From Sediminibacterium sp. Gen4 (lineage in GTDB: Bacteria > Bacteroidota > Bacteroidia > Chitinophagales > Chitinophagaceae): a DNA stretch of 48,732 nt. Location: the NCBI GenBank assembly GCA_013391385.1, contig JACBFI010000027.1:1-48732 (forward strand). Reading direction: 5' to 3'. A program made the translations under genes and the position numbers. Under the pieces are notes generated by a model. It made no database searches and was not told where the DNA came from. It saw only the letters and a program-made list of their open reading frames with translations. Position 1 is the stretch's first letter. The number at the start of each line of letters is the position of its first letter. Positions 3,276 through 28,569 of this stretch are shown piece after piece.

Positions 3276-4820
3276 CTAATCTGCTCCATCTGTCTTCGCT
3301 CTACTCACCGCGTAGGCGCCAACTTTATTACCGGTTTCTAATCCTTTTTCACAATCACTGCGATAGTGGATACCTCCGTACATTCTGGAGATAGATGCTT
3401 CTTTCGCCATAGCATCATATTCCTTTGCTCTGGAGGGTACAATATGACTCAGAATGGTGGCTGCCGCAGCACTGAATGTTGAGTGTCCGGAAATATATGC
3501 AGGGAAATTCGGCAAACCTGTGAGTGTTTTTATTTCAGGATTGAGCTGACTGGGTCTGGGATTGAAATAAAAAAACTTGGTATCCCAACATACAATTGCA
3601 GCATCCATCATTGCCATATTCAGCAATGCCATATTTCTTGCCCAACGCACTTCGCTAAATCCTTGTTTGATAAAATCTGCATCTGCAATGGCACCCCAAT
3701 GTCCGGGAGGCGTAGGTGTGGCAATACCATCCGCCCAAAAATGGGTGATTCGAATTCTTTCCGGTGTCGGATTCTTTACAAAGTCTAGTATTTCTGCCAG
3801 TTCTTTTTTCATTTGTTCACTGGAAGTAGATGGTGGTGGACCCGGTCTTAAAGTAGGAGTCGTTGTTTCATCAAAAAGAAAAGGTCGAACATTACCAAAA
3901 CCCGGTAACATAGGTGGACGTTTAGGTGTTTCCATACTGATCCATGGAATTTCACCACGTGCAACAGTATTAGTTTCCAAAGCAGTCCAGCTAGCTTGGT
4001 TACCTGCAGCAGCACCGGCTCTGTCAGCTCTTGCGCGAGTCGTGAATTTTTGTGCCACCAATCTGCCCAAAGCTTCTCCAGCCTCTATGTCGCTGCGGGT
4101 AGCAACACCTGCCATGATCTTGGAAAGTTTTTGTTCATCTGCTTTCTGTTGTATGAAAGCGATCTCACCCGGAAAAAGAAGCTTCATCATCTCAGCAGTA
4201 ACACCTGCTAACACTGCATCCTCAGATGGATAAGAAGGCAGATCACTGGTAGGTAGTTTTGCTTTGATGGATGCATCTGTTTTATAAGGCGCAGGTCTGT
4301 TGTATAGTTTCTTATAATGCCAAGCAGCCACCAAAGCATCATACTGTGCTGCACTTACATACGCATAAGCTCTTGCAGCGTAAGGAGGATTAGCAAAAGG
4401 AAACAATGGATAGGCAAATGGATTGTTGGCACTTGGAAAAGGATAAGTACCATCTGCATTTTGATAAGGAGGCAAATTGTATTTTGATACCAATTGTCTC
4501 ATCAACTCATTCCATCTCAACACACCACCCGCTCCCCAATATCTGATGCTTGCTTCCTGCGATGCGGTAAGATCACGCTGATAGCCTTTGATCTCATTGA
4601 GTTCTGCAATATAACCCGGAGTAGTAATCGCAGCAGGTGCAGCCACAGGAAATTCTGTTGGACCGGTTAATAAGACAGGTTTCCAGATGCCGGCATCAAT
4701 ATCAGTTTTATTGGGCGCCAGCAAAGGAGCATTATCAGTTGTATTAGGAGCATCTTTTGAACACGACAGCTGCAGCATCAAAAAGATGACCAAGAGTAAA
4801 AAGGATAGATTCTTTTTCAT
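3276..4820 (-). CDS. PAP2/vanadium-haloperoxidase-like lipoprotein 1
   Basis: A 514-residue protein with a lipoprotein signal (lipid Cys near residue 20, LQLSC). The C-terminal half has the complete PAP2/vanadate-binding signature: Lys415 and Arg422 (K-x6-RP), Ser444-Gly445-His446, then Ser478-Arg479 and His485 with Asp489 (SR-x5-H-x3-D). This is the site shared by class A acid phosphatases and vanadium haloperoxidases, so the protein may bind phosphate or vanadate. Which reaction it catalyses cannot be told. Residues about 165-250 look like a second, degenerate copy of the module (see findings). It is the last gene of a minus-strand unit and starts only 3 bases after the stop of the barrel gene before it, so they are surely co-transcribed. 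Confidence 0.8.
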   Translation of the reverse strand: MKKNLSFLLLVIFLMLQLSCSKDAPNTTDNAPLLAPNKTDIDAGIWKPVLLTGPTEFPVAAPAAITTPGYIAELNEIKGYQRDLTASQEASIRYWGAGGVLRWNELMRQLVSKYNLPPYQNADGTYPFPSANNPFAYPLFPFANPPYAARAYAYVSAAQYDALVAAWHYKKLYNRPAPYKTDASIKAKLPTSDLPSYPSEDAVLAGVTAEMMKLLFPGEIAFIQQKADEQKLSKIMAGVATRSDIEAGEALGRLVAQKFTTRARADRAGAAAGNQASWTALETNTVARGEIPWISMETPKRPPMLPGFGNVRPFLFDETTTPTLRPGPPPSTSSEQMKKELAEILDFVKNPTPERIRITHFWADGIATPTPPGHWGAIADADFIKQGFSEVRWARNMALLNMAMMDAAIVCWDTKFFYFNPRPSQLNPEIKTLTGLPNFPAYISGHSTFSAAAATILSHIVPSRAKEYDAMAKEASISRMYGGIHYRSDCEKGLETGNKVGAYAVSRAKTDGAD

Positions 4821-4823
4821 GAT

Positions 4824-5789
4824 TTATTTTTTTGAAGTGTCAGCCTTTTTTTCTGTTTTCTTTTTTGGTGTGAAATCCAGAATATAGAAAACGCCTCCTC
4901 CTATATTGGAAGCTTGTCCCATATTCCTACCACTCAATGTTGCATTGGCATTGGCGATGAGTGATAATCCATCTACACCTTTCAGGTTGTACTTAAAATT
5001 GACTCCCAGCATGGTTGCATTCATTCTGTTGCTGACAAATGGCATATTGTTTCTCGTGATATCAAAACCTCCGAGTGTGGTCCATTTGTTCCATACAGCT
5101 TCTGCAATGAGTCTGCCGGTTCTGTAACCCGCTCGAATATTTATGGAAGAAGCATCGGGCATGGCTACTTCATTGGTTTGGTGTAACTGCGTAGTATAAT
5201 AGAGTTCTCTGTCTAAGGTTACTTTATCTCTTACCACATATGTTCCGGAAACGGTTGCAAACCATGAGCCGATTTGATAGTCAGCCATGGCTCTGAGCGA
5301 AAGCGTTTTACTGCGCAATCCTATTGAAAAAGGTAAGAGATCCGGTGTATAATCTGATACCGGTAAAGAAACTCCACCAATTGCATAAAACGCCAATACA
5401 CTTTTGCCGAAGTCTTTTTCATAGGGCATCCACTTTACCCAAAGCGAAAGATCTTGTAATCCACTTAGCCCACTGAATGTTCCAGTTGATGCTTTTGTTT
5501 TGATATAAGGCAACCCGAATAATACATTTAGTTTATCAGATACCCCATAGTTACCCATGTAGGCAATAGTAGTGGTAGAAACAGTACCCAGATTGAGATT
5601 GTTTCTTTTCAAAGTACCTTCCCAATATTGATCCCAGCTACTGTAGTTGTACATCAAACCACTACAGTAATTATTCTTTGCCATCATAATCCCATCAATC
5701 TCTGTTTGTGCTTTTGATGGAATACATGCAGCCATTGTTATGATCAGCAAGCATGTAATACGATGAATGCTTGTTTTGATTATTTGCAT
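4824..5789 (-). CDS. Outer-membrane beta-barrel protein (transporter-like)
   Basis: A 321-residue protein with an N-terminal signal peptide ending near PSKAQ (about residue 28). The rest alternates short amphipathic strands rich in Gly, Tyr and Ser (for example LNVLFGLPYIKTK and LSLRAMADYQIG), as in outer-membrane barrels annotated as transporter or phenol-degradation MetA-like proteins. No catalytic motif is visible. The C-terminus is a Lys-rich tail (TPKKKTEKKADTSKK), unusual for a barrel that normally ends in an aromatic residue, so the tail may be periplasmic. It lies between another barrel gene (104 bases upstream, the gap filled by a hairpin) and a haloperoxidase-like lipoprotein gene (3 bases downstream). 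Function unknown. Confidence 0.65.
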   Translation of the reverse strand: MQIIKTSIHRITCLLIITMAACIPSKAQTEIDGIMMAKNNYCSGLMYNYSSWDQYWEGTLKRNNLNLGTVSTTTIAYMGNYGVSDKLNVLFGLPYIKTKASTGTFSGLSGLQDLSLWVKWMPYEKDFGKSVLAFYAIGGVSLPVSDYTPDLLPFSIGLRSKTLSLRAMADYQIGSWFATVSGTYVVRDKVTLDRELYYTTQLHQTNEVAMPDASSINIRAGYRTGRLIAEAVWNKWTTLGGFDITRNNMPFVSNRMNATMLGVNFKYNLKGVDGLSLIANANATLSGRNMGQASNIGGGVFYILDFTPKKKTEKKADTSKK

Positions 5790-5820
5790 GATGAATAGTT
5801 TTGTTGTGAAAGACTATTGG

Positions 5821-5894
5821 GTTGACAGTTGTTAGTTGACAGTTGACAGAAGAGAAATTGCTTTCCTGTCAACTGTCAACTAACAACTATCAAC
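5821..5894. repeat. 29-bp inverted repeat hairpin, copy 2
   Basis: Arms at 5821-5849 and 5866-5894 pair at 28 of 29 positions around a 16-base loop. The right arm is identical to that of copy 1 at 3235-3263; the left arm differs by one base. Both loops begin AAGAGAAA and end TTTC. The element starts at the base of the stop codon of the upstream barrel gene and fills the gap to the next gene in the same operon, so it is more likely an mRNA processing or stability element, or a mobile palindrome, than a plain terminator. Confidence 0.85.
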
Positions 5895-6991
5895 TAAAAC
5901 CTGAGACTCATCCCCACATTCACTGCCAAATCAGCAAATGCGGCATCTCCCTGTGCGTAAACTCCGGTGATTTTTGTTCTTTGCTTGTCTGCATAGCTCT
6001 GTGTACGGCTTCTCACTACCGCTACAGGAACATAGGCATAGAGATTCAACTTTTTTACTGAATAAGTGATCCCTGGTTCGATGGAATTAACATAACCAGG
6101 TCTACGGAATCCATAACTGCCGCCGATGAGATCGGAAGAAGGAACAGCTTCATGTCTGTAACCTGCTGAGAAAGTAAATCTATTCACTGTGTAATTTGCT
6201 CCAAAACGAATCATGTATTGATCAGGTACACTCATCACATCACTACCATATTGGATAGCTGTTGTGGATGTTGTTCCTCCTCTTGCCGTAGAAACACCGT
6301 TATGCTCTCTGGGATTTAGCAGATAAAAGAAATTACCATACAAACTGAGTTGTCTGTTGATGGTTTGAAATGCATTGATCTCTGTCGTGAATCCTGTTCC
6401 ACCATCACCCAACTGTATCGACTGATCTACAGGACCTAATACTTTTGCACCCGTGTTCGTATAAAAATGATCCATCACACGATAATCGCCGGTAGGTAAT
6501 TTGATACCCAGTCCCGCTTGTAAAGCAAACTTCTTTCCTTTCGCCGGATCCGTCACCCAATAGTAACCCGACACCCTTGCATCACCCAAACCGAAAGAAC
6601 TAGTAAGGTGACGTGCAGCTCCTCCATGTTCGTATAAAGAAGTACGTGTATTAGAGATCATAGGAATGCTGAATGCCATTGACCATCTGCTATTGAATAC
6701 ACGAATCAAACTCATATCAACAGTTACATTGTTATTGATGACCTGTGTATTGTTCGCAATACGATGTTTTTGTTCTGCGGTTCCTACATAGTGGCGAAAA
6801 GAATTAAAATAGCGGGTATTCAGGTTGAGTGTCCATTTACTGGGAACTGTATCAGAACCCTTGTGATCAATGGTACACATACCACCCACACCACGTATGG
6901 CTACACAACCTTGCGAGTTGGCATCAGTATATACAAGAAATGAAAAGAATACTATAAAAATTAAAGATCTCATTGTTTTGGTTTTAGGCAT
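5894..6991 (-). CDS. Outer-membrane beta-barrel protein (transporter-like)
   Basis: A 365-residue secreted protein. The signal peptide spans the hydrophobic stretch MRSLIFIVFFSFLVY and probably ends at ANSQG; translation may begin at Met7 (6973) rather than at 6991. Residues from about 45 onward form regular amphipathic strands with turns such as GLGDARVSGYYWV and IKLPTGDY, and the protein ends in ...VGMSLRF, a C-terminal Phe typical of barrels inserted by the Bam machinery. It resembles the loose transporter/MetA group. It sits 57 bases downstream of one haloperoxidase-like lipoprotein gene and upstream of a second barrel gene, so it probably belongs to the same surface complex or export route. 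Substrate unknown. Confidence 0.65.
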   Translation of the reverse strand: MPKTKTMRSLIFIVFFSFLVYTDANSQGCVAIRGVGGMCTIDHKGSDTVPSKWTLNLNTRYFNSFRHYVGTAEQKHRIANNTQVINNNVTVDMSLIRVFNSRWSMAFSIPMISNTRTSLYEHGGAARHLTSSFGLGDARVSGYYWVTDPAKGKKFALQAGLGIKLPTGDYRVMDHFYTNTGAKVLGPVDQSIQLGDGGTGFTTEINAFQTINRQLSLYGNFFYLLNPREHNGVSTARGGTTSTTAIQYGSDVMSVPDQYMIRFGANYTVNRFTFSAGYRHEAVPSSDLIGGSYGFRRPGYVNSIEPGITYSVKKLNLYAYVPVAVVRSRTQSYADKQRTKITGVYAQGDAAFADLAVNVGMSLRF

Positions 6992-7048
6992 AGCAATGAA
7001 TCACATGCTACATGTGTAATCCATTCAATTGCTATTTGTCTGTTATCG

Positions 7049-8374
7049 TTATTTCTTCATTTTAAGTCTGTCAACGATGAGTCTGCCGACACGTTGACCT
7101 AAATCGGTACTAACAATACAGGAATTGTGAAAATGAATGCCACCATAAAACCTAGCCCAGTTATTCTCTTCAGCTGCATGTCTGAATGATTTGAACGAAC
7201 GATTGGGTATGCCAAATTCCAGTTCAGTAGAATCAGTATAAGCAAAATTATCTCCAAATACACTTGTCAGTGCTTCTGCAGCAGCTGATGAGATCGTGGA
7301 ATGTCCGCAAGTATATTCCGGGAAAGCAGGAGTTTGTAAATAAGGTCTCCAGTTGGGATCAATGTACTCATTGATAATCGTTTCCGGACGTGCAGTATTG
7401 TATTTATACTTCACATACCAAGACTGAATAAATGCATCAAATAAAGCAATGGATGTTTTGGCTACTGCATATACATGTGTAGCAAAATCTGCATTGGCTT
7501 TTTTTCCGGCAATCCCTACAATACTCATCCAGTGACCTGAAGGTGAGAATTTTTTACTGCCAAACATCACATGGCCGGTTACATTCATTTTAAATGGATT
7601 ATCATCCCAAAATTCTGCAATATGTTTCTGCTCTGGTGTCAAGCTGTCAATGGCATTTTTTATGGCTATTACTTCCTGATAGTACTTGCTTTTTTTATCT
7701 GACATATTAAAAATCGGTGGCGCCGGCGGATCAAAAATTCCGGCACTGTCTATCACCAAAGGTCTTATTTCATGCCAATGAGGTTCAACCGCAGTGGCAT
7801 ACATAGGAGGCGTGGGCACCCAGCGACCGGGTATTTTTTTCACAGCATATTTTTCTGCTCCGCGAGTTTCGAGATAATTATCTTTCTTACTCCAACGGAT
7901 GATATGCATGCTGATACTGTCAGCCAGTTTTCTTGATGCCTCTTCCATTTTTTTACTCAAGCCCTTGTCTCTGGCTACTTGTAGAATACTGTCTTCATAC
8001 AATTTCAAACTTCCTTCCGGAAAAGTAACCGACTCTCCTACTTTCATATACGCCAGTAAAGTGGCCAACTCAATATCTGCTTCTGTATCAATAGCAGAGA
8101 TATTGGGTTGTTGAAGTCCCTTGAGTTGTCCGCCCAAAGAAGCATACTGATCTGGATAAGCAGCAGCAATTACTTCATACGCTGCAATAGCAGCATAAGC
8201 GTAGTTGCGTGATGCGACCATGGGTGGAAAATTATTTCCCATCACCACGGTATTTAATTCGTGAACAGTATGACTAAAAAGGGCAGGATCATGTAGGAAA
8301 TTCTTGTACTCAGTTGACTGCTTACATGACTGAATGCATATAAGCAGCATGAGCCCACCTAAGAGCTTTTTCAT
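7049..8374 (-). CDS. PAP2/vanadium-haloperoxidase-like lipoprotein 2 (Cys variant)
   Basis: A 441-residue lipoprotein (lipid Cys17 in CIQSC). It shares length and register with the lipoprotein encoded at 14647-15966: both have K-x6-RP at Lys322/Arg329, the GH pair at 357-358 and YGGIH ending at His414. Here the residue before Gly-His is Cys356 (EYTCGHST) where the family has Ser. The usual SR is Ala407-Arg408, and the Asp four residues after the histidine is Ser. Lys, both Arg and both His are kept, so an oxyanion site could still form with changed chemistry. It lies 56 bases downstream of the small anchored protein gene and 57 bases upstream of a barrel gene. Confidence 0.78.
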   Translation of the reverse strand: MKKLLGGLMLLICIQSCKQSTEYKNFLHDPALFSHTVHELNTVVMGNNFPPMVASRNYAYAAIAAYEVIAAAYPDQYASLGGQLKGLQQPNISAIDTEADIELATLLAYMKVGESVTFPEGSLKLYEDSILQVARDKGLSKKMEEASRKLADSISMHIIRWSKKDNYLETRGAEKYAVKKIPGRWVPTPPMYATAVEPHWHEIRPLVIDSAGIFDPPAPPIFNMSDKKSKYYQEVIAIKNAIDSLTPEQKHIAEFWDDNPFKMNVTGHVMFGSKKFSPSGHWMSIVGIAGKKANADFATHVYAVAKTSIALFDAFIQSWYVKYKYNTARPETIINEYIDPNWRPYLQTPAFPEYTCGHSTISSAAAEALTSVFGDNFAYTDSTELEFGIPNRSFKSFRHAAEENNWARFYGGIHFHNSCIVSTDLGQRVGRLIVDRLKMKK

Positions 8375-8430
8375 AAAACGGTTTGTAAAATAAAATCAGA
8401 TAAAAAAAGAGTATGCTTAATGAACCATCA

Positions 8431-8985
8431 TTAAGCCTGAGGTGGACGTTCTAAACGATTTACATAATCAGACAAATAAGCGGTTTCCTGATTCACAACA
8501 TGAACCTGACGCAGGTTAGCATCCCTAAACTGCCAGGAAAAAGAATGATCCCCGGTAAAGTCCAGAATAGAGAATTTCAGAACCGTATGCTGATTGGAAG
8601 ATTTTTGAGTATTGTTCGCATTGGTATAATCGCCTGCTAAGCGGAAAAAATCATCCCGCGCATTTCTGATACCGATCTTTTGAATATTCGGTACGCACAA
8701 TAATTCCAATGAGTCTTTATAGAAACGTCTTTTTACAAAATGATAGGTGATGCCATTGATATCCACTTCTCCCGATGCATTTTCAAACTGTTCCGAATTA
8801 CTACCATAAGGTGTGCTGGCTGGAACTTTGATGTGCAATAGCATGGCTTCATCGTAAATATCATCATAGAGATTTGCTTGAAATGCCTTATCAGAAGCTG
8901 TTTCCATATAATTCAACAGCATTCTGTAACCGCCCAAACTAAAGAGCAGTAAACTGAGGGATACTATCGTAGCAAGCCTTTTCAA
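8431..8985 (-). CDS. Hypothetical membrane-anchored protein
   Basis: A 184-residue protein with one hydrophobic N-terminal segment (about residues 5-24, IVSLSLLLFSLGGYRMLL) that could be an uncleaved anchor. The remainder is soluble: a conserved-looking stretch VDINGITYHFVKRRFYKDSLELLCVPN at about residues 73-99, given here in parts as VDINGITYHF and KRRFYKDSLELLC, and a Pro-rich end RPPQA. I recognise no enzyme motif; similar small proteins occur beside TonB-receptor genes in Bacteroidota (from memory, not checked). It begins 20 bases after the GH65 stop codon and precedes haloperoxidase-like lipoprotein 2, so it is part of the operon. Confidence 0.6.
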   Translation of the reverse strand: MKRLATIVSLSLLLFSLGGYRMLLNYMETASDKAFQANLYDDIYDEAMLLHIKVPASTPYGSNSEQFENASGEVDINGITYHFVKRRFYKDSLELLCVPNIQKIGIRNARDDFFRLAGDYTNANNTQKSSNQHTVLKFSILDFTGDHSFSWQFRDANLRQVHVVNQETAYLSDYVNRLERPPQA

Positions 8986-9005
8986 CCCATTAAAAATAAT
9001 TGTTT

Positions 9006-11039
9006 TTACTGAACTACCAAGGTTTTTTTATCAGGTCCGATACCGGTTAGTGTTAGTTTTTTCCAGTGTTTGGGTAATACCGATTTGATCTGTGTAATGC
9101 CCTTGGAAGTAATATCGATCCCTCCAAAACCCATCAAAACACTTTGTAAAATACCTCCAGCTCCCGTTGCGAAATATGGGTTGGTACCTCCTTTGGTTTC
9201 TGCAATGACCCTAAATGGAGGATTGAGATTCGGCTCATAGGATTCTTTGAAGAATTTTAAAGCTTTATCCGCATTCCCCAAACGGGCGTACAGCAGTGTA
9301 AAAATGGCTTGTGTCATGGCCGGTGTACCCTCATTGGGTACTCTTGTTTCATAATATTCCAGATCCTTCAATACTTGCTTGGGATCCGATACCTCTTTTA
9401 AAGGATAGGCCAACAGATTCACATCCCCCTGTTTAATACCTTCTCCCTGATAAGTAGCATGTTCTCTGGTAACACCGTTCTCCATTTTTAAAATTGGAAT
9501 ATTCTGCGCTACATGCAGCCAGTCTGCATCTGCTTTTACGCCAATCAATGCAGCCGCTTCTGTTGCATAGTTCAATACTGCTTTGGCTGCGGCATTGGTC
9601 CAGGCATTATTGTCAACGTTCTCTGCCCATTCATCTGCAGCTACTACATTTTTGATATCATATTTGCCCGCACCATTTCTCTCTACCCTACTTGCCCAAA
9701 AATCAGCGGTTTCTTTTAAGATTGGCCAGCCTCTTTCTTTCAGCCACTCTTTATCCTGTGTGACACAATAATAATTCCAGGCAGCAATCCCCACACATGC
9801 GGTGATATGGTGTTCAAATGGTCCACTCAACGCCCACACAGGTGTTTCTTCTACACCGGTAGCTGCACTTTCCCAAGGAAACATGGCTCCTTTATAACCA
9901 TGACTGAATGCATTCTTTTTAGCAGCCGCCAATCGATTGAATCGATACTCCACCATACTTTTAGCCATAGCAGGTTGTAGCACCAGCAATGCCGGATACA
10001 TCCATAATTCCGTATCCCAAAACACATGCCCATTGTATCCCAATCCACTCAATCCCATTGGGGATGGACTGTAATCTGTTCCTTCACGCGCAAAAGAATA
10101 CAAATGATACATCATGCTGTGAATATCCTGTTGCGCTTGTGGATCACCTTCGATCTGGATATCGCTTTTCCAAAGTTCTTCCCAGGCTTTTCCGTGAAAC
10201 GACAGTAAACGATCTCTGCCTTCCAGTTTGGCAAAAATGGTCATACGCTCTGCTTCATTCAATGCATCATCATGATGAGCACTGGTAATAGAAGATCCTG
10301 CAACCGAGTAGCGATAAGTGTTTCCGGCTTTCAAGGTTTTATTGAATTTCATCAAGTGCATGTTATTATCCCACATTTCATGTATCACACGCGGCTCTTC
10401 ACCATGCTTCTCTGAAAAAAGAAAAGTATTCGATGCACACATCAATAGTTTTCCTGTCGGACTCTTTGCTGATGAAGTAAGTAGGCTGATGGTCACATGT
10501 GGACGATCAATTTCATTGTAATAGTTCTGAACATCTTTTAGCGCATCAGGGGCTTCCATCACACTCGCTGCATTGATCAGGATATCTTTTTTTGCCTGTA
10601 TCGTCACATCCATCAGTACCGTAAATGGAAGATGGCGTAAGGAATAATAAGAATAGGTTACTGTAGCTTTATCACTATAATCAAAAGAGCAGGTAAAAGA
10701 TGCTTTTTTCATATCCAATTCCTGCTTCATATTGCTTACCTCCGATGCTGTGATATTTCTGCCATCAATTCCCAGTTGCATGTTCAACAAATTGAAACTG
10801 CGGAGAAAATTACTCACCCTGCCACGACCATACTGATCATATGCACCCGCCAATACCACTTCCTTTACTTTGAAGGGTTCAGGAGAGGAAACAATGCCAA
10901 TCATACCATTGGCTACTGTTACTCCATAGTAATTAGAGGGTGTTACGGAAGATACGGTGAGCTTCCATGGATCCTGAGATTTTACTGGTGCAATTCCAAT
11001 AAAAAAGATTAGCAGGTAAATCAAGTGCAATCGTTTCAT
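9006..11039 (-). CDS. Secreted glycoside hydrolase family 65 enzyme, likely alpha-glucoside hydrolase
   Basis: A 677-residue protein with a signal peptide (MKRLHLIYLLIFFIGIAPVKSQ, split as MKRLHLIYLL and IFFIGIAPVKSQ). Domain order is N-terminal beta-sandwich (to about residue 265), an (alpha/alpha)6 barrel (about 290-640) and a short C-terminal sheet. The barrel shows GHVFWDTELW and the general-acid motif AADEWAENVDNNAW with Glu470. GH65 phosphorylases bind phosphate where hydrolases place a second carboxylate; here Glu614 (VIAETKGG) fits that base. The two Glu are 144 apart, as I recall for the Flavobacterium kojibiose hydrolase FjGH65A (Glu472/Glu616). Kojibiose or a related alpha-glucoside is the best guess. 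First gene of the minus-strand operon, divergent from a VCBS lipoprotein gene. Confidence 0.8.
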   Translation of the reverse strand: MKRLHLIYLLIFFIGIAPVKSQDPWKLTVSSVTPSNYYGVTVANGMIGIVSSPEPFKVKEVVLAGAYDQYGRGRVSNFLRSFNLLNMQLGIDGRNITASEVSNMKQELDMKKASFTCSFDYSDKATVTYSYYSLRHLPFTVLMDVTIQAKKDILINAASVMEAPDALKDVQNYYNEIDRPHVTISLLTSSAKSPTGKLLMCASNTFLFSEKHGEEPRVIHEMWDNNMHLMKFNKTLKAGNTYRYSVAGSSITSAHHDDALNEAERMTIFAKLEGRDRLLSFHGKAWEELWKSDIQIEGDPQAQQDIHSMMYHLYSFAREGTDYSPSPMGLSGLGYNGHVFWDTELWMYPALLVLQPAMAKSMVEYRFNRLAAAKKNAFSHGYKGAMFPWESAATGVEETPVWALSGPFEHHITACVGIAAWNYYCVTQDKEWLKERGWPILKETADFWASRVERNGAGKYDIKNVVAADEWAENVDNNAWTNAAAKAVLNYATEAAALIGVKADADWLHVAQNIPILKMENGVTREHATYQGEGIKQGDVNLLAYPLKEVSDPKQVLKDLEYYETRVPNEGTPAMTQAIFTLLYARLGNADKALKFFKESYEPNLNPPFRVIAETKGGTNPYFATGAGGILQSVLMGFGGIDITSKGITQIKSVLPKHWKKLTLTGIGPDKKTLVVQ

Positions 11040-11078: not shown

Positions 11079-11092
11079 TTCTAAAACCCTGT

Positions 11093-20334: not shown

Positions 20335-23300
20335 TTTACCTGTTTTTTATCGGACTGGTGGCTGATATAATAACACACAGGCGTATCATTATTACGTGCA
20401 AACAGAATGGTATTTCTATTTTTTTGTTGAATCATAGTGATATCTCTTACCTGTCCTTTTACAGACAAACCAGATACAGTTGCCACTTGGGGTTCAAAAA
20501 CATTATTTCCTTTGTTGATCAAAACATGTCCATAAGATGCATCTACACTACAAAACTGTGGCAGAAGATCAAAGAAATTACCAGCCATGATGAGGTCATT
20601 TTTCCCATCCTGATTGACATCTGTAATCAAAGATGCATGTACCGAAGACAATTGTACCATATAAGGCAATGCCATGATTTCAAACTGCCCTTTCCCGTTA
20701 TTGATGGCTATTGAATTAGCAGCATTATTTACGGTGAGTAGTTTGGCGTCTTTCAGTCCCTCTTTAAAAATCTGTTCAATAGTTTTATCTGCAAAATCTG
20801 AATGTTTAAGATTTGATTTTTTTAAGGATGGGATCTGATCTGTAATATCTTTTTTCAGGAATACCGGCACATCTTTTTTCTGAATACTCTGACTAAAAAT
20901 TTTATCAACTGTAGCATTCTGATCAAAATCTTTGATCCAGAGATTCACCGGATTTTCAAAAGTAGGTCGCATGTAAAAATTCTGACCGATATTTCCCAGC
21001 ACCAAATCAGGATAACCATCCCCATTCAAATCTCCTACCGATAAAGATTGCCACCAACCCAGTTCCTTTTCAAGTCCGCTTGACAATTCCTTACACTGAC
21101 CTTTCGAGAAACTGAAAATTTTGGGTGACATCCATTCTCCTGTAATGATCAGTTCATTTTTCTGATCACCATTCACATCCACCCATGCTGCACCTGTTAC
21201 CATACCTAATTGATAAAGGAGCGGAGCCATCTTTTCAGTTACCTCTGTAAACTTCCCTGCTCCATCATTATGATATAAATAGCTTCTAGGCGAAATACCA
21301 TAATTCTGTGGTTCACTTCTGCTGCCAACAAACAGATCCATTTTACCGTCTGAATCATAATCTAAGGCAATGGCAGCACCCGCATTGGTATGACTCAGCG
21401 GAAAAGTACCCGATTGTAATGTGAAATTGCCCGTACCATCATTGATATACAATTGATGCTGGTATTTTTCAGAAGATGCAGGAACAAAGTTTCCTCCCCC
21501 ACCTACAAATAAATCCATGTCACCATCTTGATCAGCATCAAAGAAGATGGCTGCAGTTACATCATTGAAAGTAAATTTCTCAAAATCTGCCACTTTCTTT
21601 TTTACAAAACCTTGTGCTGTTTGCAAATACAATTGAGATGGTTGTCCAACAGCGCCCCCCAGAAAAATATCTTCCAATCCATCTTTATTGACATCTGTCA
21701 CCGCTGTTTTGGGGCCCTGTTTAGAGAGCATAAATGGAATATTCCTCTCCTGATAAAAATCGATATGCTCATCTTCCTTGTGTGCATCAAATGAATAGTT
21801 GATCTGAGACAATAAAGTTTCTTTTGAAACCAATTGTTCCGGCTGCCAAGACCTTACTTGAACGCTATCATAATATATATGCTGTAAACTATTCACTGTA
21901 ACATTAGTAAACGTATAGATGCTGTTATTCGGCCATTGTATCTGTATGGAATCAATCTTATGATTACCGATTCCAATGGTTTGTTTGTATTCTACAGATG
22001 ACTGAAACCCTTTACTCGGAATTAATTCGCGCGTGATCAATTGATCACCTGCATATACTTTGATTTTACTGCCAATTGCAAACGGGTTTTTGTCTTTATA
22101 ATGCAATTGTAAAGCGATATAGCCATTACTAGAATCATCATTACTGGTATTCTTGTATACCAGTGCATCTTGATTCACATTATTAATGATCAAATCAAGA
22201 TCACCATCATTATCGAGGTCTGCATAAGAAGCGCCATTGGAGAAAGTAGGTTGATCAAGACCCCATTCATTTTCAGCATCCCTGAATTTTAGGTTGCCCA
22301 AATTCTTAAATGCTTTATTAGGAATGGGAACAGATGGCATTTTATCGATAACGGTATTCACTTCTTCTTTTTTGCCTTTCAATACCATCTGATTCACCAC
22401 ATCATTGGCAAAGAAGTCTATAAAATCCTGATCGGTTACATCGCGATAGATACCGTTACAAACAATGATATCAGATAAGCCATCATTATCGGCATCAAAC
22501 ATCAATGCGCCCCAACTCCAATCACTCGCAGCTACACCGCTAAAAAATCCGGTTTCTAAAAATCTTCCTTCACCATTATTGACTTGCAAGGCATTCTGGG
22601 TATACTGGTTATAAAAACCTTGGTCTTGCTTTAGTTTGAATACATCATAATTTTCAAAAGAAGTATTGGTCTTCAATCGATAATCATCGCCCGGCAACAT
22701 ATCTGTGGTAAAAATATCCGGCTTACCATCATTGTTGATGTCTTGTAGGTCAGCTCCCATCGATGAAAAGCTGATATGCTGTGTACGATTCTCTATTTCA
22801 TCTTTAAACGTACCATCTCTTTGATTGATGTATAAATAGTCTTTTTCAAAAAAGTCATTGGATACATACACATCCGGATAGCCATCCAGATTTACATCAC
22901 CAACTGTTACACCCAATCCAAAACTGATGATACTGCCATAGATACCGGCTTCTTTGGTTACATCGGTAAATTTTCCATTGTCGTTTCGCAATAAATGATC
23001 ACCCCCACCTTTTAAGAATTCAGCATAAGGCGCTTGTGCATCGGGCACACTACGCATATTGGCATAGTTTAAAGAATTGACAGGTATCGGACTATTGTTC
23101 ACCAAAAAACAATCCAAATCTCCATCCAAATCATAATCAAAGAAAGATGCATGGGTTGTATAACCATCATTGTCTAGTCCGTATTCAGCAGCTTTATCAG
23201 TGAATGTCAGGTTTTGGTTATTGATGTACAGTTTGTTTTTCCGTAATGCTTTATTGAGCATATTGCCGGCATTACACACATAAATATCCAGCCAGCCATC

Positions 23301-23663
23301 AGCATTGATGTCTACAAAGACAATTCCTGTACTCCATTCATTGTTATAAGTAATACCTGCTTGCTTAGTAATATCTTCAAATTTCAAATTCCCTTTATTC
23401 AGGTATAGTTTATTGCTGCTTTGATTAGCGGTAAAGAATACTTCGGGTAGCCCATCATTATTCAAATCACCTGTTGCTACACCACCGCCATTATAAAAAT
23501 TACGGTACTTGAATACATTGAAAGATTCTGATTCTGTGAGTGTATTCTTGAAATTGATATTCGAATCAGACACCAATGCATACAGCGTCTTTTTACGATC
23601 ATTCTTACAAGCTGTCATGCAAGCGCAACAAATAACTAGCAGCCAAAATGGATAACGTATCAT
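20331..23663 (-). CDS. VCBS/FG-GAP repeat lipoprotein with ASPIC/UnbV domain (3)
   Basis: A 1110-residue lipoprotein (lipid Cys near 19 in ACMTAC, in a Cys-rich signal). Calcium loops include GDLNNDGLPEV, DINADGWLDI, DYDLDGDLDC, DVNLDGYPDV and DADQDGDMDL. The ASPIC/UnbV-like domain is at about residues 513-585 (IPSKGFQSSV...IQIQWPNN). It is the first gene of a two-gene unit with the VCBS gene downstream, overlapping it by 4 bases. Although on the same strand as susCD, it is separated from susD by a strong terminator at 23821-23848, so it probably has its own promoter between 23664 and 23800, where I could not pick a convincing box. Likely a surface partner of the SusCD transporter. Confidence 0.82.
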   Translation of the reverse strand: MIRYPFWLLVICCACMTACKNDRKKTLYALVSDSNINFKNTLTESESFNVFKYRNFYNGGGVATGDLNNDGLPEVFFTANQSSNKLYLNKGNLKFEDITKQAGITYNNEWSTGIVFVDINADGWLDIYVCNAGNMLNKALRKNKLYINNQNLTFTDKAAEYGLDNDGYTTHASFFDYDLDGDLDCFLVNNSPIPVNSLNYANMRSVPDAQAPYAEFLKGGGDHLLRNDNGKFTDVTKEAGIYGSIISFGLGVTVGDVNLDGYPDVYVSNDFFEKDYLYINQRDGTFKDEIENRTQHISFSSMGADLQDINNDGKPDIFTTDMLPGDDYRLKTNTSFENYDVFKLKQDQGFYNQYTQNALQVNNGEGRFLETGFFSGVAASDWSWGALMFDADNDGLSDIIVCNGIYRDVTDQDFIDFFANDVVNQMVLKGKKEEVNTVIDKMPSVPIPNKAFKNLGNLKFRDAENEWGLDQPTFSNGASYADLDNDGDLDLIINNVNQDALVYKNTSNDDSSNGYIALQLHYKDKNPFAIGSKIKVYAGDQLITRELIPSKGFQSSVEYKQTIGIGNHKIDSIQIQWPNNSIYTFTNVTVNSLQHIYYDSVQVRSWQPEQLVSKETLLSQINYSFDAHKEDEHIDFYQERNIPFMLSKQGPKTAVTDVNKDGLEDIFLGGAVGQPSQLYLQTAQGFVKKKVADFEKFTFNDVTAAIFFDADQDGDMDLFVGGGGNFVPASSEKYQHQLYINDGTGNFTLQSGTFPLSHTNAGAAIALDYDSDGKMDLFVGSRSEPQNYGISPRSYLYHNDGAGKFTEVTEKMAPLLYQLGMVTGAAWVDVNGDQKNELIITGEWMSPKIFSFSKGQCKELSSGLEKELGWWQSLSVGDLNGDGYPDLVLGNIGQNFYMRPTFENPVNLWIKDFDQNATVDKIFSQSIQKKDVPVFLKKDITDQIPSLKKSNLKHSDFADKTIEQIFKEGLKDAKLLTVNNAANSIAINNGKGQFEIMALPYMVQLSSVHASLITDVNQDGKNDLIMAGNFFDLLPQFCSVDASYGHVLINKGNNVFEPQVATVSGLSVKGQVRDITMIQQKNRNTILFARNNDTPVCYYISHQSDKKQVK

Positions 23664-23768
23664 AGCATGCTAAAATAGTATAAATACCGACTGATATTGT
23701 TGAAGCATAGCATAAAGTGAACATAAAAAGAGAAGCTTTGAGATTGGTTTGATGGCTAATAGTTCATG

Positions 23769-23806
23769 GCATATGGACTATGGACCATGGACCATGGTCT
23801 ATATGC
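23769..23806. repeat. Imperfect palindrome of repeated TATGGACCATGG words
   Basis: The 22-base arms on either side of a CCATGG core pair at about 19 of 22 positions. The words TATGGAC and CCATGG recur in tandem. It lies between susD and the VCBS gene, next to the susD terminator. No coding content is seen from 23664 to 23873. Confidence 0.55.
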
Positions 23807-23820
23807 TATAGTAAAAGAAA

Positions 23821-23848
23821 GAGGCTGTATCACATTTGATACAGCCTC
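23821..23848 (-). terminator. Rho-independent terminator after susD
   Basis: A perfect 11-bp stem (GAGGCTGTATC / GATACAGCCTC) with a 6-base loop. Read on the minus strand it is followed by TTTCTTTT, so it should end the susCD transcript 25 bases beyond the susD stop. It could also act in the other direction, weakly. A sequence relative lies at 34613-34650. Confidence 0.8.
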
Positions 23849-23873
23849 TTTGAGAAAATATGATCTATCTGAA

Positions 23874-25487
23874 TTAGTAACCTACGTTCTGTTTCAGATT
23901 AGGATTAGATGCCAAGGCAGTAGTTGGGATAGGATATACTGCTTTATAACCTTCTGATGCGTTTGGTCTTTCTTCAACAGGAGCGTTGAATCTTCCGAAA
24001 CGAATCATATCTGTTCTTCTGTGACCTTCGAGATAGAGTTCACGACCTCTTTCTGCCAATAAAACATTTAATGTTACTGCAGTAAGTGGAGTAGCACCTC
24101 TCAATGCGCGGATGCTGTTTACAATGGTCAACGGAGTCTCTGTGTTACCAACAGCAGAACCACCTCTTAATAATGCTTCAGCTTTCATCAGACGAACATC
24201 AGCAAAACGAAGGAATGGAAACTCATTCTGACTTCCCCATGCACCATCATTGATAGTTGCAGGGTCTAGTGGGAATTTGTTTACACGGATACCACTTGCT
24301 TCACCATTGAAGAAAATAGACGCAGTACGAGTAAAGATCAATGGGTTACCACTTCTGTCATACAAATCACCAATAGGATCTCCGATTACACCCGGCTCTT
24401 TAGGATTGCTAGCCTTAACAGGACCACGTGCTTGTCCAACAAGGAAACCAGCGTTTGCACCTACTAAGTTAGTATAGCCAGCCAATGGAGTTGATTTACG
24501 AACGTCAACATCTTCAAAGCTGTCATAGAATTGAGATAATGTCACGAAACCATTCCAGCTTGATGGACGTTGGTTATAGTGCCAGCTTTGAGCTGTTTGC
24601 CAAACCAAGTTCGCACCATTACCCGCTCTTGCATCACCTCCGGCCTTACGTACGAAGATGTTTTCTGAAGAAGCAGTACCATTGTTCCATTTGAAGTTAT
24701 CCCAGTATTGAGGATCTAAACTCAGGTTCGGATTGTTAGCCACTAAATTGCAGTATTCAATCACCTTGTTCATATCTGCAGGTGCAAAAGTATAAGGACC
24801 GGCAGGAGAAGCAGGATCTTGCTTGTAAACAGCTTTGTTCAAATATGCTTTAGCTAATAAAGCCCATGCAGCTTCTTTTGTAACTTGACCACGAAGTGCT
24901 GGTGTAAAAGCAGGTAAAGCAGGAACTGCAGCTTCTAGTTCAGTAATAATGGCATCGATAGCAGCTGATCTGGTCAACACATCAGGAATTGCATTAGCAG
25001 CAGCTGTTGCAGGACGTGTTTGTACTTGTCCGTACAAGTCACAAACCTGTAAACGGAAGAAAGCACGTAAGAACTGTCCTTCTGCTTTGGTAAGACCTGT
25101 AGCAGTTTCAGCTACGAGAGTTGTTTGGAAAAGAGCTCCATTCAAACCATTCCATGTGTCATTGATCTGGTTATGGTCAGGACCCCAAGTATGCAGGTGA
25201 AGACGGCGCCATGTACCAAAGTCATCCCAGTCAGTACCACGTGTTGGGCCCATGATTTCATCGGTGGAATGCTCTTGCAAACCAAACCAGTTACCCTGGC
25301 CACCGGTTAATTGATTCAATTGTTCATACACTGCCGCTATGGATGGTGCAGGTGGGGCTCCGGTATTGCTGTTAGGAGCAATTGAGTTCGGTGCTTCCAG
25401 CTTGGGGTCAAGCTTGGAGCAGGATACGGTTAGTGCAGCTACCGCGGCAACAACCGGTACAAACCTACTTTTAAAGATATTTTTCAT
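23874..25487 (-). CDS. susD: SusD/RagB-family nutrient-binding lipoprotein
   Basis: A 537-residue lipoprotein (lipid Cys23 in LTVSC). It has the tetratricopeptide-based SusD fold: an early conserved region with WNGLNGALFQTT and AEGQFLRAFFRLQVCDLYG, and the C-terminal RAxxxLxxLLAERGRELYLEGHRRTDMIRFG-type block, seen here as LLAERGRELYLEG and RRTDMIRFG. SusD proteins form the lid of the SusC transporter and bind the glycan or other nutrient at the cell surface. Starts 19 bases after the susC stop, so they form one operon. The ligand is not evident; the nearby GH65 gene suggests an alpha-glucoside, but the linkage is only by neighbourhood. Confidence 0.92.
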   Translation of the reverse strand: MKNIFKSRFVPVVAAVAALTVSCSKLDPKLEAPNSIAPNSNTGAPPAPSIAAVYEQLNQLTGGQGNWFGLQEHSTDEIMGPTRGTDWDDFGTWRRLHLHTWGPDHNQINDTWNGLNGALFQTTLVAETATGLTKAEGQFLRAFFRLQVCDLYGQVQTRPATAAANAIPDVLTRSAAIDAIITELEAAVPALPAFTPALRGQVTKEAAWALLAKAYLNKAVYKQDPASPAGPYTFAPADMNKVIEYCNLVANNPNLSLDPQYWDNFKWNNGTASSENIFVRKAGGDARAGNGANLVWQTAQSWHYNQRPSSWNGFVTLSQFYDSFEDVDVRKSTPLAGYTNLVGANAGFLVGQARGPVKASNPKEPGVIGDPIGDLYDRSGNPLIFTRTASIFFNGEASGIRVNKFPLDPATINDGAWGSQNEFPFLRFADVRLMKAEALLRGGSAVGNTETPLTIVNSIRALRGATPLTAVTLNVLLAERGRELYLEGHRRTDMIRFGRFNAPVEERPNASEGYKAVYPIPTTALASNPNLKQNVGY

Positions 25488-25506
25488 TGCTTTCAGTATT
25501 TATTAT

Positions 25507-28500
25507 TTAAAATCCAACATTTAAACCTACAGTAATGATCCTTGGTCTTGGATATTGAGTGTAATCAAATCCGCGAGAAGGGATACCATTGATGTTCTTG
25601 TCAACATTCACTTCAGGATCAATGCCAGAGTATCCGGTAATCAGGGCTAAATTCTGACCTGATGCGAATACGGACATAGATTTGAACAGGCTGGTTTTCT
25701 TCAGGTTAAATGCATAGCTCAGGTTCACGTTCGCAAGACGGATGAAATCACCCTTCTCTAAGAAACGAGTTGAAACTGATCCAGGGTTAAATGGATTCTC
25801 AGGTCCGTTTCCGATATCGTATGTAACGTTACGAGCATTACGCAAGCTACCTTTCAAGAATAACGCGTTCGCTGTATTGTTATATACGTGGAAACCTGTG
25901 ATTGCGTTCAAAAACACGCTCAAATTCCATCTGCCGTATGAGAAATTATTAGTCAAACCGGCAAAGAAGGTAGGTAATGCAGATCCAACCAATTGGTTAG
26001 AAGCACCATTGCCATAACGAGCGTTACCGTTACCGTCAAAGCCATTGAATACAGGCATTGACCAAGTAAAGATAGAAGATCCGTTGGTCAGGGTTTGTGC
26101 AAATGCACCTGTCAGACCCTGTCCACTCACCGCACCAGTATTAATTGGTGTTGGTAAACCTTTGATATTGTTGTTTACGGTAGTCATGTTATAGCTGATA
26201 TCCCAGCTGAACTTCTTGCCTTGGATAGCACGATAGTTAACACTTGCTTCCCATCCTTTGTTGATTACTTCGCCATCTAAATTTATCCACCAGTTAGCAG
26301 TAGGAGCAAAACCTCCCGGTGTTGGAGCGAAGAACAGCATGTTTTTACGCTTATTATTATAATAATCCAAGGTTACAGACAATCTTCTGTCTTTGGTAGT
26401 GAAGTCTACACCAACACCGGTAGTAGCTACTTCTTCCCATTTCAGATCAGGATTACCTTGTTGGATAAAACGAGTAACAGGACCAGAACCTACGTCAAAT
26501 GTTTGCTGTAAGTTAAGCGCTGCATAAGAACCTAGGTTATCCTGGCTACCCAGTTTACCATAGTTAACTCTGAAGCTCAGGTCGCTTAAGAAACCTCCGA
26601 AGATATTCTGCATAAAAGACTCTTCCAGTGCTCTCCATTTGAAAGCAAAGGCAGGGAAAGTTGCATAACGATTGTTTGCACCGAATTTAGAAGATCCGTC
26701 AGATCTTACCGTTACAGTCAGGAAGTATTTGTCGTTATATGTGTAGTTCAAACGACCAAACACAGACTGCAATTCATTTCTGTCATATCCAGGAACGAAG
26801 TTGGCATAATTATTAAATGCATTGTAATCTTTTACAAATACATCGTTAGGACCTACAACAGGAGTTTTTGTTCCCCAGCCAAATGAAGCTTTGTAACGGT
26901 TTTCAAAACTCTGATAAGAATAACCTGCAATCGCATTGATAGCATGTTTATCATTGAAAGTTTTGTCATAAGTCAGGTAATGTTCAACCAATGTTGATTT
27001 GGTCTCCAAGTTTTGCTTGGTTGTACGACCATTACCTTGGATACCATTACCATAGTCTCTACCAAATACATTGATCGTACCGCCATAAGCGTTAGATCCC
27101 AAACGAGGGTCAGCAAATGAAGTTCTTTCAGCTTTAGAATTATCTAAACCTAATACTACTTTATAGCTAAGGGCTTTTGTGATCTGATAGCTTGCAGAGA
27201 AATTACCCAGAAAACGATTATTGAAATCGGTGTCAGTAAAATAAGCCAGCATTTGAGCCGGATTACGCTGATCGCCGGGCTGATAGAAAGTACCATCATT
27301 ATTATAAATAGGGTTGGTTGGGTTGAACTGCAATGCAGCACCTAACAAACTACCCTGATAACCTGCGTTATTAGAGAGTGGAGCGTAAGAGTTCTCCGTT
27401 CTTGACATGGTCATATTAGCTTCCAGTCTCACTTTGTCGTTGAATAACTTTTGGCTAATGTTGGCACGACCAGTTAATCTTTCCAAGCCGGTATTCTTGA
27501 TAATACCTTCTTGGTTATCATAAGAACCACTCAAACGTACAGAAGTACCTTTATTGCTCATAGACCAGCTTAAATTGTGGTTCTGAGAAATAGCGGTTCT
27601 GAAGATTACATCCTGCCAATCGGTATTGGCACCTCTGTCGATACCTACTACCGCAGCAGCAGCAGCATCTGGTGAAGCACCACCATCGATATTAGCTCTT
27701 TTAGCTGCCAATAAGAAATCTTGTGCATTCATCAAATCATAACGACGAGCAGTTTGTGCAATGGTTGTATTGGCACCATAAGAGAATACACCACCTTTAC
27801 CACCTTTACCTTGTTTGGTAGTGATCAAGATAACGCCATTCGCACCTCTTGAACCATAGATAGCAGCAGCAGATGCATCTTTCAGCACTGTGATACTCTC
27901 GATATCAGTTGGGTTCAAGAAGATCAATGGGTTTTTAGCAGTTGTACCACCTTCAACACCACTTCCGTTTGTACCCAATGTACCGCCCTGGATCAGGGGC
28001 ACACCATCAATAACATACAATGGCTCTTGCGCACCACTGATAGAACCAGTACCTCTGATGTTGATGGTTGCAGCAGCACCGGGCTCACCGGTAGAAGGTG
28101 TTACAAGCACACCCGCTGTACGACCTTGCAACAATTGCTCTGGAGAAGCAATCTGGCCTTTGTTGAAATCTTTTTCAGTAACGCGAGAAACAGAACCAGT
28201 TACGTCTTTCGACTTTCTGGTACCATAACCTACTACTACTACATCAGCAAGCGCATCCGCAGAAGCGGTAAGCGATACGTTGGCAGTGTTAGAGGCTGAG
28301 ATGTTCACATCGGCAGAAGCGTATCCAGCATAGGATACAGTTAAAGCTCTGGCTGATGAAGGAACAGTGATTTTAAAAGTACCATCCGCACCGGTTTGTG
28401 CACCAGTCGTTGATCCTTTTACTAACACAGATGCACCTGCGAGAGGCGATCCGTCCTTGGAGTCGGTTACTTTACCGGTAACCGTTTTTGTTTGTGCCTG

Positions 28501-28569
28501 CGCGAATAGGGTAAATACGCAAGCGAGTAAACCCACTAGTGCGGGCCTGACAAGCTTCGAAAGATTCAT
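25507..28569 (-). CDS. susC: SusC/RagA-family TonB-dependent outer-membrane transporter
   Basis: A 1020-residue protein. The signal peptide ends at AQAQ (about residue 26). A carboxypeptidase-regulatory-like domain follows (about 30-110, TVTGKVTDSKDGSPLAGASV), then the TonB-box region with VVVVGYGTRKSKDVTGSV and a plug domain (about 115-250, LLQGRTAGVLV and LYVIDGVPL). The remaining 750 residues form the 22-strand barrel, ending in VGLNVGF. This is the standard SusC layout: active import of oligosaccharides or similar nutrients across the outer membrane, driven by TonB. The partner susD follows at once. The LacI-type gene is divergent and likely controls it. Confidence 0.95.
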   Translation of the reverse strand: MNLSKLVRPALVGLLACVFTLFAQAQTKTVTGKVTDSKDGSPLAGASVLVKGSTTGAQTGADGTFKITVPSSARALTVSYAGYASADVNISASNTANVSLTASADALADVVVVGYGTRKSKDVTGSVSRVTEKDFNKGQIASPEQLLQGRTAGVLVTPSTGEPGAAATINIRGTGSISGAQEPLYVIDGVPLIQGGTLGTNGSGVEGGTTAKNPLIFLNPTDIESITVLKDASAAAIYGSRGANGVILITTKQGKGGKGGVFSYGANTTIAQTARRYDLMNAQDFLLAAKRANIDGGASPDAAAAAVVGIDRGANTDWQDVIFRTAISQNHNLSWSMSNKGTSVRLSGSYDNQEGIIKNTGLERLTGRANISQKLFNDKVRLEANMTMSRTENSYAPLSNNAGYQGSLLGAALQFNPTNPIYNNDGTFYQPGDQRNPAQMLAYFTDTDFNNRFLGNFSASYQITKALSYKVVLGLDNSKAERTSFADPRLGSNAYGGTINVFGRDYGNGIQGNGRTTKQNLETKSTLVEHYLTYDKTFNDKHAINAIAGYSYQSFENRYKASFGWGTKTPVVGPNDVFVKDYNAFNNYANFVPGYDRNELQSVFGRLNYTYNDKYFLTVTVRSDGSSKFGANNRYATFPAFAFKWRALEESFMQNIFGGFLSDLSFRVNYGKLGSQDNLGSYAALNLQQTFDVGSGPVTRFIQQGNPDLKWEEVATTGVGVDFTTKDRRLSVTLDYYNNKRKNMLFFAPTPGGFAPTANWWINLDGEVINKGWEASVNYRAIQGKKFSWDISYNMTTVNNNIKGLPTPINTGAVSGQGLTGAFAQTLTNGSSIFTWSMPVFNGFDGNGNARYGNGASNQLVGSALPTFFAGLTNNFSYGRWNLSVFLNAITGFHVYNNTANALFLKGSLRNARNVTYDIGNGPENPFNPGSVSTRFLEKGDFIRLANVNLSYAFNLKKTSLFKSMSVFASGQNLALITGYSGIDPEVNVDKNINGIPSRGFDYTQYPRPRIITVGLNVGF

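Follow-up and report, generated by a model that had tools for sequence, protein, structure and literature searches.

Paired VCBS-propeller and haloperoxidase-like lipoproteins in a possible SusCD locus for sucrose uptake in Sediminibacterium

Why should genes for a sugar importer, a glycoside hydrolase, giant calcium-loop propeller proteins and relatives of vanadium haloperoxidases (VHPOs) stand together in a bacterial genome? The question is raised by the window studied here, a stretch of 48,732 nucleotides from Sediminibacterium sp. Gen4 that makes up the whole of one contig (C21) in a genome of 3.52 Mb that is 98% complete. A preliminary description of this DNA had placed three VHPO-like lipoproteins with a PAP2 domain, three VCBS/ASPIC lipoproteins, a SusC/SusD (SusCD) transporter and a GH65 enzyme at 3276-28569, and the open reading frames (ORFs) are indeed in place, with Pfam matches over the cut-offs. 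Our analysis indicates that a VCBS protein and a VHPO very probably form a real functional pair. We give an even chance to the view that the block as a whole serves to take up sucrose and, probably, alpha-1,2-glucosides, in a locus similar to the sux system but equipped with SusCD, which bears separately evolving VCBS-VHPO pairs. Every component family is already known; for the SusCD-VCBS-VHPO cassette and the VCBS-VHPO pairing, no description was found among the open-licence papers listed. The genes of the block on which the argument depends are the following.

3276-4820, minus strand: VHPO1, a PAP2 lipoprotein, remote from VHPO2 and VHPO3 and partly acid-phosphatase-like
5894-6991, minus strand: B2, a strand-rich exported protein and putative outer-membrane barrel, with no Pfam match
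7049-8374, minus strand: VHPO2, a lipoprotein of the Zobellia iodoperoxidase type; PAP2 over the Pfam cut-off, Cys replacing Ser358
8431-8985, minus strand: X184, a small conserved operon protein whose homologues precede VHPO2 in relatives
9006-11039, minus strand: GH65, of the kojibiose-hydrolase (alpha-1,2-glucosidase) type, with an N-terminus that is signal-like by eye
11093-14641, plus strand: VCBS1, an FG-GAP/ASPIC lipoprotein (FG-GAP and UnbV_ASPIC in Pfam), partner of VHPO3
14647-15966, plus strand: VHPO3, a lipoprotein of the Zobellia iodoperoxidase type; PAP2 over the Pfam cut-off, seven vanadate-site residues intact
16990-20334, minus strand: VCBS2, an FG-GAP/ASPIC lipoprotein (FG-GAP and UnbV_ASPIC in Pfam)
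20331-23663, minus strand: VCBS3, an FG-GAP/ASPIC lipoprotein with a CRTAC1-like part and a second propeller
23874-25487, minus strand: a SusD-like lipoprotein (Pfam PF07980 over the cut-off)
25507-28569, minus strand: a SusC-like TonB-dependent transporter (Pfam; NCBIfam TIGR04056)

The tight spacing reported earlier was recovered, with 5 bp between VCBS1 and VHPO3 and a 4-bp overlap of VCBS2 and VCBS3; SusC and SusD are separated by 19 bp. A lipobox-like Cys, judged by eye, is present in all six VHPO and VCBS proteins. The VCBS proteins (1,110-1,182 residues) match FG-GAP repeats and UnbV_ASPIC over the Pfam cut-offs, which assigns them to the CRTAC1/ASPIC-UnbV family, and the genome assembly shows no ASPIC match beyond these three. 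They differ from CRTAC1 (cartilage acidic protein 1, PDB 9etn) in being lipoprotein-like, and the fold of VCBS3 combines a CRTAC1-like part (residues 25-600) with a second propeller (614-1108).

Do these families associate beyond this genome? The preliminary description had proposed as a check that the co-occurrence of VHPO, VCBS and SusCD genes be counted across Bacteroidota, and the counts are positive. Thirty genomes, this one included, have 26 genes of the VHPO2/3 type. An ASPIC gene is no more than 15 kb away from 18 of them, compared with 0.86 expected under random placement; the contigs of the remaining eight have no ASPIC match. In the genomes that hold a VHPO, 30 of 54 ASPIC genes are near one. 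The best 80 of 582 confirmed VHPO relatives constitute our named loci (numbered L), and within 10 kb these contained VCBS in 68 cases, SusC or SusD in 50, and both in 47. Of the 12 named loci without VCBS, six come from short contigs or lie where a contig ends, and the VHPO and VHPO1 labels are not distinct in this set, the iterated VHPO1 model having also captured the VHPO2/3 family. An even draw of 296 genomes from the phylum returned 112 VHPO matches in 60 genomes; without this genome's two and the 12 matches with the poorest E-values (2e-39 to 2e-31), there were 98 survey loci from 59 genomes; three of these are identical to named loci, and in eight the VHPO lies far off-centre owing to contig ends. 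Within 10 kb the survey loci held VCBS in 63, SusC in 41, SusD in 29 and VCBS together with SusD in 28; VCBS was directly upstream on the same strand, at no more than 300 bp, in 48 of the 98, and at least one VCBS-linked VHPO was present in 45 of the 59 genomes. Twenty control regions from the same contigs (15 genomes from the first rows of the phylum search, 18 regions at 100 kb and two at 50-60 kb from a VHPO) contained neither VCBS nor SusD, SusC in three and GH13 in one (Fisher p 2e-8). The SusC counts of the named and survey loci may contain TonB-dependent receptors of other kinds, and our own model of SusD could overlook divergent members. Linkage to VCBS varies with the strength of the VHPO match (59 of 76 strong matches, 4 of 22 weak ones), and the link therefore belongs to the closer VHPO clade. 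Two counts weigh on the other side: no VCBS is in view at 35 of the 98 survey loci, and 34 ASPIC genes are carried by four genomes without a VHPO match.

The partners within the cassette were then compared by distance correlation in loci with full-length, ordered SusC-SusD-VCBS-VHPO genes (28 named and 12 survey loci, or 39 distinct loci once one survey duplicate was removed), with the known SusC-SusD complex as positive control. In the 28 named loci, where the four genes are on one strand, r was 0.957 for SusC-SusD, 0.907 for VCBS-VHPO and 0.51-0.71 for the cross combinations. Removing Gemmatimonadota (26 loci) gave 0.948, 0.886 and 0.36-0.60, with partial correlations of 0.949 for SusC-SusD and 0.842 for VCBS-VHPO. 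The 11 separate survey loci behaved likewise (0.978, 0.838 and 0.47-0.74; partial r 0.959, 0.770 and -0.15 to 0.32), as did all 39 loci together (0.961, 0.932 and 0.71-0.80; partial r 0.900, 0.846 and -0.04 to 0.15). A point that tells against so clean a separation is that the cross partial correlations of the 26-locus set range from -0.49 to 0.46 and are not near zero. Adjacency alone fails as an explanation, because SusD also frequently stands next to VCBS. Nor does species descent account for the result: for 25 VCBS-VHPO pairs from nine genomes with several cassettes r was 0.79, compared with a mean of 0.08 and a maximum of 0.58 when partners were shuffled within genomes (0 of 5000 shuffles reached the observed value), and for all 57 pairs r was 0.71 against a shuffle maximum of 0.63. 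These results indicate that each VHPO goes with its own VCBS, and that the pairs combine with different SusCDs.

That these are common surface genes which gathered in a carbohydrate island in the ordinary way and share no function is very hard to credit. SusD genes are common in the genomes examined (10 in genome G000), and some genomes have numerous ASPIC genes (16 in G023), but gene order is kept over many genera, the proximity of VHPO to ASPIC genes exceeds random placement some eighteen genes to less than one, and partner-specific co-evolution exceeds species descent. Chance clustering was rejected on conserved order, the control regions and the within-genome shuffle.

The wider set of loci offers several further observations. 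In Arenibacter palladensis (L126), SusD, two VCBS genes and a VHPO follow one another, and some 2 kb behind SusD are unassigned. The two Gemmatimonadota records among the best 80 loci, L117 and L134 (Gemmatimonas/Gemmatimonadetes titles), carry SusC-SusD-VCBS-VHPO-VCBS; among the 28 loci each is nearest to the other in all four proteins, a sign that the cassette may have been transferred as a whole. In L069, L075, L076, L093, L095, L098, L109, L110 and others, the VHPO is preceded or followed by a smaller VCBS-type protein (about 490-545 residues). Between VCBS genes, L081, L084, L121, L129 and L139 have a small lipoprotein-like ORF of about 190-207 residues, for which the L121 copy gave no Pfam match. 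A family of about 397 residues occurs near the VHPO in L075, L111, L113, L115, L116, L126 and L135; its L111 copy matches the Pfam HD domain and PycTM, a Pycsar effector-like domain.

What reaction would the VHPO partner carry out? VHPO2 aligns over its length with the Zobellia iodoperoxidase chain 4cit (369 bits), and VHPO3 does so at residues 13-435 (401 bits). The three VHPO-like proteins of the preliminary description all carry PAP2 but are not of one kind. VHPO1 (PF01569 57.7 bits, cut-off 27.2) totals 73 bits against 4cit, with significant alignment confined to residues 304-507 and thus no full-length similarity, and it also matches acid phosphatases (52 bits). The reference enzyme is VIPO1 of Zobellia galactanivorans (PDB 4cit/4usz), reportedly the subject of a study by Fournier in 2014, and we take the roles and the mature numbering of the vanadate-site residues to be those of this protein, ZgVIPO1. 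VHPO2 and VHPO3 resemble it over their whole length. VHPO3 keeps all seven site residues (Lys324, Arg331, Ser358, Gly359, His360, Arg410 and His416) and VHPO2 keeps six, with Cys for Ser358; both proteins retain Trp321 and Phe353 and differ from the Zobellia enzyme in having Phe at the Tyr263 position. In an alignment of 103 VHPO sequences, which counts the window's own two, Lys324, Arg331 and His360 are present in every sequence, and Arg410 and His416 in 102, the remaining one being unreadable. An orthologue of VIPO1 in Z. uliginosa (98.4% identity, 441 residues) comes after three VCBS genes and closes their row. We consider the VHPO somewhat more likely to act as a peroxidase than as a phosphatase. 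The exchange at Ser358 tempers this view, since Cys or Ala occupies that position in 17 of the 103 sequences, VHPO2 among them.

The phosphatase alternative holds that the VHPO-like proteins are phosphohydrolases that would, together with VHPO1, dephosphorylate glycosides, after which GH65 would remove alpha-1,2-glucose and SusCD would import the neutral sugar. Glycerophosphate polymers with kojibiosyl groups are an example of such phosphorylated glycosides. We regard this as unlikely. The PAP2 domain is common to both enzyme types, VHPO1 has its acid-phosphatase matches, GH65 is of the kojibiose-hydrolase type, and genes for glycerol kinase, glycerol facilitator and glycerol-3-phosphate dehydrogenase occur near the cassette in a few loci; yet each glycerol gene is near at most 5 of 131 VCBS-linked loci (68 named and 63 survey loci, with three loci in both pooled sets), the neighbours in the window are of sucrose type with no glycerol gene among the ORFs scanned, and VHPO2 and VHPO3 are full-length haloperoxidase relatives with Trp321, Phe353 and, apart from Ser358 in VHPO2, the vanadate site preserved.

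How the pairs are built into the locus, and where the locus ends, can be read from relatives. The additional genes required for this comparison are listed here.

101-1054, plus strand: a PfkB sugar kinase; the best NCBIfam model is fructokinase, under the model's cut-off
1206-3191, plus strand: an amylosucrase-type GH13 protein (sucrose-active family; PDB amylosucrases 7esh 514 bits and 1g5a 442 bits)
4824-5789, minus strand: B1, an exported protein with no Pfam match, a barrel by eye only
16056-16985, plus strand: X309, homologous to a GyrI-like-domain protein that adjoins a VHPO gene in marine flavobacteria
28816-29844, plus strand: a LacI-type regulator (Pfam) beside susC

Twenty regions from relatives were annotated by similarity to the window proteins. 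The core operon of the genus runs susC-susD-VCBS3-VCBS2-X184-VHPO2, mostly with B2 and in some genomes with GH65, B1 or VHPO1. In G014, G009, G001 (whose contig begins within susD) and G006 it is closed by B2, has X309 on the opposite strand between VCBS2 and X184, and faces amylosucrase and PfkB. G017 has no recognised B2 and ends in B1-VHPO1, G011 shows B2-B1-VHPO1 over two contigs, GH65 is present in G015, G007 and G010, and the first two of these also have a third VCBS gene. The VCBS1-VHPO3 genes lie elsewhere in the genome in G011 and G017 and beside other SusCD genes in G015, and they adjoin X309 in the window, G010, L061, L064 and L085. Instead of the three sub-operons originally envisaged, relatives suggest one SusCD-VCBS-VHPO2 operon and a second pair, VCBS1-VHPO3, that is separable from it.

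The two proposed barrels are putative: the predicted model of B2, from five sequences, consists mostly of long strands at low confidence (pLDDT 53.7), and neither B1 nor B2 has a Pfam match. Homologues of B2 are located after VHPO2 in relatives, and those of B1 were found in L041, L049, L061, L064 and L085. X184 matched nothing in Pfam at 0.01 or in NCBIfam at 0.001. X309 aligned to the GyrI-like-domain protein with an hhalign probability of 96.4, and the homologue in L116 matched the Pfam GyrI-like domain.

Which sugar would the importer serve? The SusCD assignment is firm, with SusC at 708 bits to TIGR04056 (cut-off 368) and TIGR04057 and PF07980 over their cut-offs. By sequence, the GH65 protein belongs with the alpha-glucosidases and is of kojibiose-hydrolase type (1219.5 bits to NCBIfam NF053734, whose cut-off is 800), in agreement with the glucoside-acting role first suggested for it. 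It resembles the kojibiose hydrolases FjGH65A and MmGH, scoring 950 bits to 7fe3 with identical residues in both catalytic-Glu stretches, and it has a Pro-Ala pair where phosphate-site serines would be; an excerpt of PMC8626586 describes the catalytic Glu pair of a GH65 kojibiose hydrolase. The window enzyme differs from these two in being encoded within a SusCD-VCBS-VHPO operon. Amylosucrase was found in 13 of 19 genomes of the genus, this one counted, and in 11 of the 13 it lies 1.2-5.9 kb from VHPO2; in the exceptions, G002 (57% complete) and G005 (77% complete), the gene is on other contigs. The two-by-two table of amylosucrase and VHPO2 over the 19 genomes is 11/1/2/5 (Fisher p 0.01, the genomes not being independent). 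The PfkB kinase adjoins amylosucrase also in L049, L051 and L054-L057, and it is followed by an ORF with an MFS-transporter start in G014, G001, G006, G011 and G015, the G009 region stopping earlier. The G011 copy matches Pfam MFS, and its best NCBIfam match, under the cut-off, is a sucrose/proton symporter. The window contig starts 100 bases ahead of the kinase gene. A GH32 gene (sucrose/fructan hydrolase family) and an SSF symporter gene, both minus-strand genes at 43944-47164 and some 15 kb away from SusCD, fit a diet of sucrose or fructosides. The genes at 3276-28569 are as first described, but the limits drawn there are probably too narrow: the functional unit likely includes the fructokinase-like kinase, amylosucrase and LacI regulator outside them, a context pointing to sucrose.

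Elsewhere on the contig, at 31969-34599, genes for a DUF3641-bearing Radical SAM protein, a DUF2064 ORF and a methyltransferase follow one another, a row that we take to resemble arsenosugar-type genes.

Several observations weigh against the sucrose assignment or restrict its reach. MmGH, a characterised GH65 of the kojibiose-hydrolase type, left sucrose uncut according to an excerpt of PMC8537180. G010 carries the VHPO2 operon and GH65 and lacks amylosucrase. The candidate permease gene of this genome (74% identical to the G011 MFS gene) sits on another contig (C59). Outside the genus, just 4 of the 131 VHPO loci linked to VCBS have amylosucrase nearby, and 22 have at least one of four alpha-glucoside enzymes, compared with 3 of 67 VCBS-less loci and controls. 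We therefore keep sucrose for this locus and do not regard it as the general cargo of the cassette. Neighbours outside the genus vary, and include kojibiose-hydrolase-type GH65, trehalase, amylosucrase, a longer GH65 that may, to judge from its length, be of the phosphorylase type, glycerol genes, GH3 and GH2. The presence of trehalase, glycerol and amylosucrase genes in some loci suggested the harvest of osmolytes (sucrose, trehalose, glucosylglycerol) as a general role for the cassette, and this was rejected on the same 22 of 131 loci.

Two known systems offer a comparison. The experimentally characterised sux locus of Xanthomonas consists of four genes, for a TonB-dependent receptor, an amylosucrase, an inner-membrane transporter and a LacI repressor, as given in an excerpt of PMC1790865. 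The window shares with this sux CUT locus of Xanthomonas campestris (SuxA, SuxB, SuxC and SuxR) the receptor, the amylosucrase (SuxB) and the LacI regulator (SuxR) in one locus, LacI and amylosucrase flanking the SusCD-VHPO block at opposite ends. The counterpart of SuxC would be the MFS gene, which is beside the kinase in relatives and is present in this genome. In contrast to sux, the window uses a SusC/SusD pair and adds the fructokinase-like kinase, the kojibiose hydrolase and the VCBS-VHPO pairs. With Sus-type polysaccharide utilisation loci it has in common SusC/SusD and a glycoside hydrolase with a signal-like N-terminus, whereas its neighbour enzymes point to small glycosides. To our knowledge the Sus paradigm does not include a VCBS-VHPO pair.

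These comparisons suggest a course of events. SusCD would bring in sucrose or an alpha-1,2-glucosylated relative, GH65 would clip alpha-1,2-glucose ahead of the cytoplasm, the sucrose permease, amylosucrase and fructokinase would complete use of the sugar inside the cell, and LacI would sense the sugar and regulate the locus; we hold this part to be rather probable. Less surely, each VHPO would be docked at the outer membrane by its VCBS, where it might consume hydrogen peroxide and oxidise a halide or other small substrate beside the importer, an oxidation that could protect the cell or harm competitors during feeding. The single cell-surface machine first pictured, in which the propellers would bind a Ca2+-dependent ligand and the VHPO-like enzymes would dephosphorylate or halogenate the glycan, is thus supported in part: by the co-occurrence counts, the co-evolving pair and the glucosidase type of GH65.

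Whether the VCBS-VHPO pair in fact serves feeding, through protection, antagonism or substrate conditioning, or simply rides along seems to us evenly balanced. A self-contained unit of defence or antagonism, making hypohalite or acting as a sink for hydrogen peroxide in SusCD loci and unrelated to their sugar, is a lesser but serious prospect, which we judge fairly unlikely. It would agree with the finding that, when the link inside the pair is taken out, VCBS and VHPO co-evolve little with SusC/SusD (39 loci), with the highly variable neighbouring enzymes, with the 15-18 kb examined around VCBS1-VHPO3 of G011 and G017, which contain no SusCD, and with the higher expression of Zobellia vIPO3 on the brown alga A. 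nodosum than on alginate, reported in an excerpt of PMC9296495. Yet SusC or SusD is near 50 of the best 80 loci, 28 of which have the full-length ordered cassette; SusD (29 of 98) and SusC (41 of 98) are far more frequent at survey loci than in controls (0 and 3 of 20); and amylosucrase is linked across the genus.

A stronger proposal, that VCBS and VHPO make up a calcium-dependent outer-membrane peroxidase complex working with SusCD, is doubtful at present. Hydrogen peroxide would come from sugar-linked oxidation, the VHPO would use it on halide next to the importer, and the propellers would hold the enzyme and perhaps its oxidised product. In L065 (Pfam match on this copy), L066, L067, L080 and L083 the VHPO has a GMC oxidoreductase gene no more than 10 kb away; as a general source of hydrogen peroxide it was rejected, being near only 5 of the 68 named and 1 of the 63 survey VCBS-linked loci. 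The lack of any regularly linked source (GMC oxidoreductase near 6 of 131) counts against the use of hydrogen peroxide beside the importer proposed above.

We know of no assigned role for the VHPO relatives of non-marine Bacteroidota or for bacterial CRTAC1/ASPIC propellers. The locus appears as a Bacteroidota counterpart of the sux sucrose system. If such a peroxidase complex exists, the Zobellia iodoperoxidase, whose structure is solved, would be one half of a far wider Bacteroidota system, which by record titles extends to genomes from lakes and soil and to Gemmatimonadota. To take up iodine, the marine flavobacterium Arenibacter C-21 requires glucose, oxygen and calcium (PMC5064120). A peroxidase complex working with SusCD would, if real, explain these three requirements, the calcium-loop propellers beside the peroxidase accounting for the need for calcium, and the locus is consequently a molecular candidate behind the sugar- and calcium-dependence of bacterial iodine uptake. 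Overall, the pairing of VHPO with VCBS and its SusCD context give each family a partner and make their function testable, in Zobellia as well.

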